Positions 8,236 through 12,856 of a stretch of 20,122 bases of DNA are shown here, in pieces; position 1 is the first letter of the stretch; every line of letters begins with the position of its first letter. Made by a program: the position numbers and the translations under genes. This stretch comes from a virus. The stretch covers positions 1 to 20,122 of IMG/VR virus record IMGVR_UViG_3300025570_000153; one strand, given 5' to 3'. The notes under the pieces are model-generated. The model had not been told where the DNA came from and searched no databases. It saw only the letters and a list, made by a program, of their open reading frames with translations.

Positions 8236-9402
8236 TTATCGAATAGAGTATTTACCTACGTTTGGTTTACTCTTGACCATAGTAACGGCATAGCGTAAAG
8301 CATCAATTGCGTGATTGTTATTATCCATAGGTTTGTTAAGTAGGTAACCGTTCTTATCCTCTTGCCATTTGTAGCCGTTGAACTCTGATATTAGGTTTGT
8401 GCTTTTGGTTGTTACGCATAGCTTAAATCGTTTCAGTAGGTCTATCCCTATGTTAATTGAATCCCTACCCTTTACGCATGGTTTTACGTTGTACCCTAAG
8501 CGATATAGCTCTTCGATGGACTTAGGCTCTGAACTGTCTGCAAATACAACTCTTCGCTTATCAGTCCAGAAAGCATCCATTCGGTTAGCAATGTCAGAGT
8601 TAGTGAGTCCTCGTTCATATAGTAATTCGTTAAATATTAATTTATCTTCTAATTCGTAAACCTCTACCATAGAACTAGGGTCATTTGTATATCCAAAGTC
8701 TAAGCCAGTAGATATTAGCGTTGCCTCTTCCGGTACTTTGCTCATCATTTCAACTCTTGGGAATATGATAGACTTTGAGAAACCTCTTTCCCCTAATCCG
8801 TATATCTTCCAATAATCCTCGTCCGTTTCTCGTAGCCTTTCAATCTCCTTGACTAATTCATCTGGTAAGAATGGATTATCCTTGTACGTTGATTTAATGA
8901 ATGTACAATCTTCTCTGTTTAGTATCTTATCATATAACCAGTGATGTGTTTCAGATGGGTTATAGTCAATGTATATCTTTTCCTCTGTCCTTACCAGAAG
9001 CTGGAAGAAATCTTCCCAGGTTAATTCGTTTGCCTCGTTACAAAATAGATAGTGCCGTTTAGCACCTCTCTTCTTTTGTGGCTGATCTAAAGATATAAAC
9101 TCAAATGTATTGCCGTTAAGCGTATAGGTATGGTCTGACTTATTGTGCTTTGTTTCATCGTATAAGCCATGAGCATTAAGTATCTCAAAAAAGTCTTTCA
9201 TTACCGATAGCTTCAAACTGGGTAATGACTTCCTTACGATGCTGAACCTTTTACCAGTTTCCTCAAATGCCTTGACAATAAGAAGCTGACAAAGTGAGTA
9301 GGTTTTACCACTTCGCGTACCACCTTGATTAACTACCAGCTTTGTAGGTGCGTTGTAGTTCCTCTCAAATACGTTACTCGTCTGTATTTTTAGATTGGAC
9401 AA
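8236..9402 (-). CDS. terL: Terminase large subunit
   Basis: A 388-residue protein with the complete set of large-terminase motifs. Walker A is QGGTRSGKT (26-34), and Walker B with the catalytic acid is HYLFCNE (117-123). The nuclease part has GLDFGYTNDPSS (233-244, D235), VFADSSEP (286-293, D289) and HAIDALRYAV (364-373, D367), the usual three acidic residues. The length is on the short side for PBSX/Terminase_3-like enzymes but all motors and metal ligands are present. It packages DNA into the head with TerS. Its start overlaps the TerS gene by 29 nt. Downstream come a moron and tail genes instead of the expected portal. Confidence 0.95.
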   Translation of the reverse strand: MSNLKIQTSNVFERNYNAPTKLVVNQGGTRSGKTYSLCQLLIVKAFEETGKRFSIVRKSLPSLKLSVMKDFFEILNAHGLYDETKHNKSDHTYTLNGNTFEFISLDQPQKKRGAKRHYLFCNEANELTWEDFFQLLVRTEEKIYIDYNPSETHHWLYDKILNREDCTFIKSTYKDNPFLPDELVKEIERLRETDEDYWKIYGLGERGFSKSIIFPRVEMMSKVPEEATLISTGLDFGYTNDPSSMVEVYELEDKLIFNELLYERGLTNSDIANRMDAFWTDKRRVVFADSSEPKSIEELYRLGYNVKPCVKGRDSINIGIDLLKRFKLCVTTKSTNLISEFNGYKWQEDKNGYLLNKPMDNNNHAIDALRYAVTMVKSKPNVGKYSIR

Positions 9403-9733: not shown

Positions 9734-9983
9734 ATACTTCCATATATTTTAAGTGTATCTTCTTTAACATATCTTTTAAATCGGTTATATCTCCGTACTC
9801 AATATGACAACCTCTACACAATGCTTGTAAGTTTTCGATGTAGTCTTTAGTCTTACTCCCTCCCATTCCTCTGGCATCTATATGGTGAATGTCTGTTGCT
9901 GGATTATCACATACTTCGCAAGGGATAAAATCGCACCTATCAAAGCTAAAGTAATCTAGATATATTTTAGTGTGCTTTTTCAC
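9720..9983 (-). CDS. HNH endonuclease
   Basis: An 87-residue protein with a standard zinc-finger HNH core: C22-E-V-C25, then DIHHIDARGMGG (31-42, the catalytic H33/H34), YIENLQALC (49-57; N51) and CRGCH with C56 and C59. Such small HNH proteins beside TerS/TerL support DNA packaging in several phages by nicking or cleaving DNA with the terminase; this one is in that place. It overlaps the dioxygenase gene by four bases (ATGA) and TerS by 14 nt. It could be a homing nuclease, but the lack of flanking disruption and its tight coupling argue against that. Confidence 0.9.
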   Translation of the reverse strand: MKKHTKIYLDYFSFDRCDFIPCEVCDNPATDIHHIDARGMGGSKTKDYIENLQALCRGCHIEYGDITDLKDMLKKIHLKYMEVYGTK

Positions 9984-10762
9984 TTACAATTTTTAAAAGC
10001 CTTTAGAGGGTAAAATACTAAACTATTTCGGTAGCCATCTTTCTCAGTTGGTACAATAGGTGTTACTCCATGTACGTTTCTCCAAGCTGGATAAACTAAC
10101 ATAGAATTATCTCTACTATCTACTGTCGCTCCATAATCTGGTACAGTTGTGTTACCTCCAGTAGCATTTTCTTTTTTAGCGATTATTACATTTACGCATC
10201 CAACTAAGTTACCAGCGTCTCTGTGAAAAGGGGCTGATATATTATAATTTGAAATACTACTGGTAAACATCTTGCCAAATCTCCACTTAGCTGGTATATT
10301 ATCTTCTATAATTTTTACTTGCTCTTCGTATATTTTTGGTGCTATCTTTTTTATTAGTTCTTCACTTTCTTTACAAGCTAATAACATCGCCTTTACAAAG
10401 ATTTCTGCACTCTTTACTTTGTGTACGCTGCTCATTGTAGCATATGGTCTTCTCATGTGTGGCTTTGGTGGAACACCCCCTATAATAGTAGAATACTGTA
10501 ACACCTCTTTTTCTTTGTTATGCAACCCACTACTTCTTTTCATGACTGACTTTGGTACTCTTTTACTTCTGAGTTCTGTGTTAGCTATGTTTACATATTT
10601 GGATAGCTTCTCACTATGCTTAGAAATGTCTTTAATGTAAAACCCTACTACCTCTCCATCTTGAGTGAATAGTGTATCTTCTGTAATATTAGGCTCTATA
10701 TCTCCACATATATCGCCTATCTTTACACCATGCTCTAATTGTATTAACTCTACCTCTTTCAT
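9980..10762 (-). CDS. 2OG-Fe(II) dioxygenase, TET/JBP-like
   Basis: A 260-residue protein. The C-terminal half carries the double-stranded beta-helix signature: F179-H180-R-D182 (HxD), the GGN motif near 202-204, H231 (RNVHGV), and R245 (GYRNSLVFYPL), giving H180/D182/H231 as iron ligands and R245 to bind 2-oxoglutarate. Upstream, YSTIIGGVPPKPHMRRPY (90-107) and SSVH (111-114) resemble the N-terminal element I associate with phage TET/JBP-type oxygenases. These enzymes hydroxylate the methyl group of thymine or 5-methylcytosine in DNA. It is coupled by ATGA to the ParB-like gene and to the HNH gene, next to the terminase. No DNA methylase or glycosyltransferase is seen, so the substrate is unknown. 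A protein-hydroxylating relative is the main alternative. Confidence 0.75.
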   Translation of the reverse strand: MKEVELIQLEHGVKIGDICGDIEPNITEDTLFTQDGEVVGFYIKDISKHSEKLSKYVNIANTELRSKRVPKSVMKRSSGLHNKEKEVLQYSTIIGGVPPKPHMRRPYATMSSVHKVKSAEIFVKAMLLACKESEELIKKIAPKIYEEQVKIIEDNIPAKWRFGKMFTSSISNYNISAPFHRDAGNLVGCVNVIIAKKENATGGNTTVPDYGATVDSRDNSMLVYPAWRNVHGVTPIVPTEKDGYRNSLVFYPLKAFKNCK

Positions 10763-12742: not shown

Positions 12743-12763
12743 TTGTTTAGTTTTAAAGTTTAG

Positions 12764-12856
12764 CAGTAGGGGAACGATTCGAACGTTCATAGAGGCATTT
12801 CTGCTTTCTCTACCTCCGAGACAAGGAGGCGTGTCTGCCAGTTCCACCACCCTACT
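12764..12856 (-). tRNA. Type II tRNA with anticodon GUC, Leu-like body
   Basis: A complete 93-nt cloverleaf on the minus strand. The acceptor is AGTAGGG/CCCTACT (7 of 7 pairs), with discriminator G and no encoded CCA. The D arm is GTGGAACTGGCAGACAC, very close to bacterial tRNA-Leu. The anticodon arm is CCTCC, loop TTGTCTC, GGAGG, so positions 34-36 read GUC. A 24-nt variable region carries a 5-bp stem (TAGAG/CTCTA). The T arm is GAACG, TTCGAAT, CGTTC. GUC is the aspartate anticodon, and G2-C71, G10, G34, U35, C36, C38 and G73 match the known E. coli Asp identity bases, but Asp tRNAs are type I and do not have this D arm or a long variable arm. U37 is unusual. Identity is therefore uncertain: Asp, a mutated Leu, or (by long arm and G73) Ser. 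Confidence 0.85.

Follow-up and report, generated by a model that had tools for sequence, protein, structure and literature searches.

A family of type II tRNA-like genes with aspartate identity bases in Bacteroidota and their phages, and its possible role in asparagine synthesis

Results

A type II tRNA-like gene in a tailed phage

The window, i.e. the whole stretch of DNA analysed here, is a virus record of 20,122 bases that a terminase gene assigns to the tailed phages, and its main genes lie on the minus strand. ARAGORN calls a single tRNA in it, tRNA-Asp(gtc) at 12763-12856 (-). The features of the locus, in window coordinates, are:

8236-9402: terminase, the basis for the tailed-phage call
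12764..12856 (-): whole RNA, a type II tRNA-like gene with the AspRS identity set and anticodon GUC; discriminator at 12764
12850..12856 (-): 5' strand of the acceptor stem, AGUAGGG, with A1-U72 (family norm U1-A72) and G2-C71
12831..12847 (-): Leu-type D arm, GUGGAACUGGCAGACAC, with GGCAGA and without U20a
12818..12824 (-): anticodon loop UUGUCUC, with G34 U35 C36 at 12822-12820, U37 at 12819 and C38 at 12818
12789..12812 (-): variable arm of 24 nt, towards the short end of the family range of 15-130 nt
12772..12788 (-): T arm GAACG UUCGAAU CGUUC, covarying among relatives
12764..12771 (-): 3' strand of the acceptor stem, CCCUACU, and discriminator G73 in the sequence; no encoded CCA

Free folding returns a full 7/5 type II cloverleaf with a 7-bp acceptor, a 3-bp D stem, a 5-bp anticodon stem (CCUCC/GGAGG) extended by a G26-U44 pair, a 5-bp T stem and a long variable arm in the form of a bulged hairpin; G10 pairs with C25, and the anticodon loop reads U32 U33 G34 U35 C36 U37 C38. 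The fold energy is -30.9 kcal/mol, and 4 of 200 shuffled sequences were equally stable. Against a covariance model of 50 other members, with the window left out, the RNA scores 100.3 bits (E = 6e-29), and this match together with eight relatives at the syntenic place puts it far beyond chance. An Rfam search with the window RNA matched no family, even at E <= 10, and among the eight viral loci compared with Rfam a single copy (L153) matches the generic tRNA model RF00005, at 33 bits. A sequence-only reading of this locus had described a perfect cloverleaf with a 7-bp acceptor, a Leu-like D arm with a long variable arm and the loop TTGTCTC with anticodon GUC; fold and sequence bear this out, and the ARAGORN class call that it proposed as a check agrees. 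It had also listed G2-C71, G10, G34, U35, C36, C38 and G73 as Asp identity bases, with the right bases and coordinates.

Relatives and family

That reading recommended a comparison with homologous phages. Among 80 relatives fetched by means of the terminase, eight carry the same tRNA in syntenic position. Both the anticodon stem (CCUCC/GGAGG, CCCUC/GAGGG, CCCAC/GUGGG) and the T stem (GAACG/CGUUC, GUACG/CGUAC, GUAGG/CCUAC) change in a compensated manner among the eight, and GUC, U37 and G73 are unchanged. Since the stems covary while GUC, G73 and G2-C71 are kept, the anticodon loop is under selection, which argues against the inactive relic that had been considered; the idea of an attP site or relic was likewise set aside because the stems covary. 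In L016 and L018 a diverged copy with the same loop follows the terminase. In the related phages L013, L015, L025, L036 and L039, which lack the RNA, the opposite strand bears a tRNA-Gly(tcc) close to the terminase.

This RNA is a member of a large family of tRNA-like genes, so far without a name, in Bacteroidota and their viruses; at least 100 viral contigs carry it, as do at least 120 from Bacteroidota chromosomes. Among the matches listed in the bacterial genome scan, all named records are Bacteroidota, and the named carriers include Pedobacter, Chitinophaga, Cyclobacterium, Belliella, Spirosoma, Marivirga, Aquirufa, Saprospiraceae and others; chromosomal copies often stand in tandem, two or more together. 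At least 215 distinct copies, 128 from chromosomes and 87 from viruses, all selected by pattern in degenerate scans, were analysed. In counts unforced by the search patterns, G2-C71 and G73 are each present in 215 of the 215 distinct copies listed, and pair 1-72 is UA in 205, AU in 9, AxA in one and GC in none. The oddity of U37, already remarked on in the sequence-only reading, is a family trait: position 37 is U in 207 and C in 8 of the listed copies and never a purine, and C38 is present in 211, with positions 37 and 38 left free by the pattern in the viral scan only (U37 in 82, C37 in 5 and C38 in 83 of 87 copies). The U33-G34-U35 loop is intact in family copies. In a separate viral scan that left the anticodon free, 68 of 69 distinct copies had GUC, which speaks against a point-mutated Leu tRNA, for which related phage tRNAs with Leu anticodons had been named as the telling case. 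One viral copy (L376) has AUC in place of GUC.

Across 50 sequences and 24 pairs, 98.5% of the cells are paired and 19 pairs have two-sided changes, and none of 500 shuffles was as good. The model built on these 50 sequences gives 93-144 bits in genomes with the RNA and tRNA-Leu-like matches of about 60 bits or less in other genomes. Rfam holds no entry for the family, the phage and plasmid collections searched contained no match to the RNA, and a search of the open-access journal literature found no description of it. A Bacteroidota-type promoter, TTG-N17-23-TAnnTTTG, lies upstream of 34% of the chromosomal copies versus 0.8% of shuffled sequences.

The variable arm ranges from 15 to 130 nt across the 215 distinct copies listed. 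In L126, L146, L203, L266 and others it contains extra hairpins and the recurrent motifs AUAAA...CUAA and GGGUUGACCAC, and such arms look like a structured domain. Several viral and some chromosomal copies keep the body with a minimal arm; as the viral ones show, the body can do its work, whatever that may be, without a full arm. The viral copies are embedded in ordinary phage operons, and clustering of their neighbour genes for asparagine-related partners returned no AsnC-type or asparagine-metabolism neighbour.

Two further genes, L132:4247-4331 (-) and L090:203-292 (+), have Leu-type bodies with the GTC loops CTGTCAA and CTGTCAT, A37 and A73. They were set apart from the family as a different kind and are perhaps true anticodon-shifted Leu tRNAs.

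Identity bases for charging and amidation

Bacterial Asp identity consists of G73, G34, U35, C36 and C38 with G2-C71; LeuRS requires A73, and SerRS requires C72 (PMC9976931). U1-A72 makes an Asp-tRNA a target for amidation by GatCAB, and tRNA-Asp is barred from it by G1-C72, which is strictly conserved in bacterial tRNA-Asp, and by U20a (PMC9976931). The family shares G34, U35, C36, C38, G73 and G2-C71 with ordinary tRNA-Asp(GUC), whereas the latter is of type I and, in the genomes with the RNA, has G1-C72, U20a and the purine A37. With tRNA-Leu, the likely origin of the RNA body, it shares the D arm and the type II architecture and differs in U37, in G73 for A73 (215/215 listed copies) and in GUC for a Leu anticodon (68/69). 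All listed copies have A or U at position 72, in contrast to the C72 that accompanies G73 and a long arm in tRNA-Ser and allo-tRNAs, and the acceptor branch covaries as 7/5 and not as the 8/4 or 9/3 of allo-tRNAs. With the Asp identity set present and both A73 and C72 absent, the RNA reads as an AspRS substrate. Neither block to amidation is present in the family, which has U1-A72 in 205 of the 215 listed copies and the D loop GGCARA. The window copy likewise lacks U20a; the A1-U72 that it has in common with its clade is not a documented amidation determinant. By sequence, then, we infer an AspRS substrate with a GatCAB-compatible first pair, and the earlier reading was right to name an unusual class of Asp tRNA as one option.

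Linkage to GatCAB and AspRS type

In a phylum sample of 43 genomes (17 with the RNA, 26 without), GatB is present in 17/17 genomes with the RNA versus 20/26 without it (p=0.07); among the GlnRS-bearing genomes of this sample the counts are 15/15 versus 4/10 (p=0.001). Within the bacterial family that includes Pedobacter zeae (G002/L216), the RNA occurs in 64 of 111 genomes, and among the 80 tested GatB is present in 38/39 genomes with the RNA versus 8/41 without it (p=9e-14, species not being independent). If genomes without the RNA are restricted to those of at least 3 Mb, GatB is found in 2/31 (p=3e-16, again with non-independent species). The exceptions in this family are one genome with the RNA and without GatB (G425) and eight with GatB and without the RNA. 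One of the two large genomes of the latter kind, G414, has a partial copy at locus L372 (G414:C10), where the RNA breaks off after its 5' half and unrelated sequence takes over; this is probably a remnant.

AsnRS is encoded in 17/17 genomes with the RNA of the phylum sample and GlnRS in 15/17, the two without GlnRS being G008 and G010. The His31 motif is a mark of non-discriminating AspRS. It is absent from the AspRS of the genomes with the RNA, which is thus of the discriminating type by motif, and present in several genomes that have GatB, lack the RNA and fall outside the AspRS clade that follows. In the AspRS tree, 15 genomes with both the RNA and GatB and four with neither form one clade, and the four absences lie in two separate places only. 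Given AsnRS, GlnRS and a discriminating AspRS, GatCAB would be idle in most of these genomes without this RNA; G008 and G010, which have AsnA and lack GlnRS, point to another job for GatCAB there. In total, the data establish a strong genomic link between the RNA and GatCAB in bacterial carriers.

An AsnC-type regulator and asparagine synthetases

At 73 of 116 chromosomal loci a gene for an AsnC/Lrp-family regulator lies upstream of and divergent from the RNA gene, at a distance of 132-349 nt with one exception at 1793 nt. The best NCBIfam match of the five regulator members tested is AsnC, at 143-179 bits, while no other model exceeds 93; the AsnC scores lie below the equivalog cut-off of 227. 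In E. coli, asnA is divergent from its AsnC regulator in a similar arrangement. Among the 17 genomes with the RNA, AsnA is encoded by G008 and G010 only, in four (G004, G006, G260 and G389) no AsnA or AsnB passes the cut-off, and the remaining ones have AsnB-like proteins, which may in many cases be true synthetases. AsnB length was dropped as a class marker, the AsnB of B. subtilis being long.

Discussion

Starting from the observed family, its conservation, structure and identity bases, and its linkage to GatB, AspRS type and an AsnC-type gene, we infer the following route: (i) AspRS would aspartylate the RNA by means of G34, U35, C36, C38, G73 and G2-C71, (ii) GatCAB would accept the Asp-RNA, on account of U1-A72 (in the window, A1-U72) as its first pair and the absence of U20a, and convert it to Asn-RNA, (iii) U37 and the large variable arm would exclude the RNA from decoding Asp codons, so that asparagine is not inserted there, (iv) a putative release step would set asparagine free for use, and (v) the phage copy would presumably sustain asparagine supply, or flux through the route, during infection. 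As the best explanation of the data, and as somewhat better than an even bet, we suggest a non-decoding tRNA that is reserved for asparagine synthesis by AspRS and GatCAB and that phages also carry. That the family is a tRNA class for metabolism, i.e. a non-decoding carrier for asparagine synthesis with its own chromosomal AsnC-type regulator and a phage-spread RNA auxiliary metabolic gene, we would call an even chance; supply during infection as the reason for carriage by the phage is our guess. The sequence-only reading could not reveal the family as a whole, its chromosomal members, the GatCAB-compatible first pair or the fact that GatCAB and an AsnC-type regulator co-occur with the RNA.

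In Staphylococcus, non-proteinogenic glycine tRNAs serve peptidoglycan. They are similar in that altered bases set a tRNA aside for a non-ribosomal job; they differ in being type I tRNAs for glycine and the cell wall, and they lack a giant variable arm, a link to GatCAB and a spread into phages. In tRNA-dependent asparagine synthesis as known from Bdellovibrio, Deinococcus and Staphylococcus aureus, a non-discriminating AspRS and GatCAB act on tRNA-Asn (PMC4206432). Charging with Asp, amidation by GatCAB guided by U1-A72 and, putatively in some genomes, use where an asparagine synthetase is missing would be common to both routes; however, the known one employs a decoding tRNA-Asn, whereas here the substrate would be a separate RNA, the Asp anticodon of which a discriminating AspRS should accept. 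Allo-tRNAs (Mukai 2017, via PMC7609411) are likewise tRNA-like genes of type II; they share G73 and have GUC among their non-Ser anticodons, but they have 8/4 or 9/3 branches and Ser identity and occur in Clostridia, Proteobacteria and Acidobacteria, whereas the present family has a 7/5 branch, an Asp anticodon and A72.

The AsnC-type neighbour, the GatB linkage and the elaborate variable arm with its recurrent AUAAA...CUAA and GACCAC motifs could fit a regulatory or sensor RNA of an asparagine/nitrogen circuit, the charged or amidated state of which a partner would read, e.g. via the variable arm. We consider this unlikely: phage and some chromosomal copies are minimal-armed and yet keep the body, no readout partner was seen, and tandem copies suggest dosage. 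An ordinary decoding Asp isoacceptor with a type II body, reading GAU/GAC and supplementing the host tRNA as tRNAs common in phages might, would account for the full AspRS identity set and the perfect cloverleaf. It would not explain the linkage to GatB and the AsnC-type gene, and the pyrimidine at position 37 in every listed copy, arms of up to 130 nt, the consistent lack of G1-C72 and a normal tRNA-Asp with A37 in the same genomes make it rather improbable.

Other non-decoding tRNAs, such as those of Staphylococcus, feed further aminoacyl-tRNA-dependent reactions, and a donor of Asp or Asn for lipid, wall or peptide aminoacylation is therefore conceivable; we regard it as very unlikely in that the recurrent neighbour is the AsnC-type regulator and no conserved transferase lies beside the gene. 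Still less probable is an anti-defence decoy or nuclease-resistant tRNA-Asp replacement, which carriage by phages and the intact U33-G34-U35 loop would suit; against it, the gene is also abundant in chromosomes, where it is linked to the AsnC-type regulator and to GatB. A mutated Leu or Ser tRNA, mistranslating or inactive, is hardly credible despite the Leu-like D arm: the loop is conserved and the stems covary over the 215 distinct copies listed, and the proposed mischarging fails on the absence of both A73 for LeuRS and C72 for SerRS, so that the earlier remarks that G73 is wrong for Leu and that SerRS reads G73 with a long arm hold, the latter for true tRNA-Ser and not for this RNA with its A72 or U72 (PMC9976931).

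Many Bacteroidota keep GatCAB despite having AsnRS and GlnRS, which has been a puzzle (PMC4206432). If asparagine is indeed made on this RNA, the retention of GatCAB would be explained, a tRNA would be kept for biosynthesis and not for decoding, an RNA gene would join the metabolic repertoire of phages, and the annotation of asparagine auxotrophy in Bacteroidota would need revision.

Two minor observations concern other viral genes. At 9980-10762 (-) of the window, adjoining a ParB-like gene, lies a gene with a Tet/JBP-type 2OG-Fe(II) oxygenase domain (Pfam PF12851, 44.5 bits), possibly for DNA base modification; its PHROG label, queuine tRNA-ribosyltransferase, looks wrong. Another viral contig (L002) contains a 9-kb stretch in which 18 tRNA genes are interleaved with small HNH-like ORFs.
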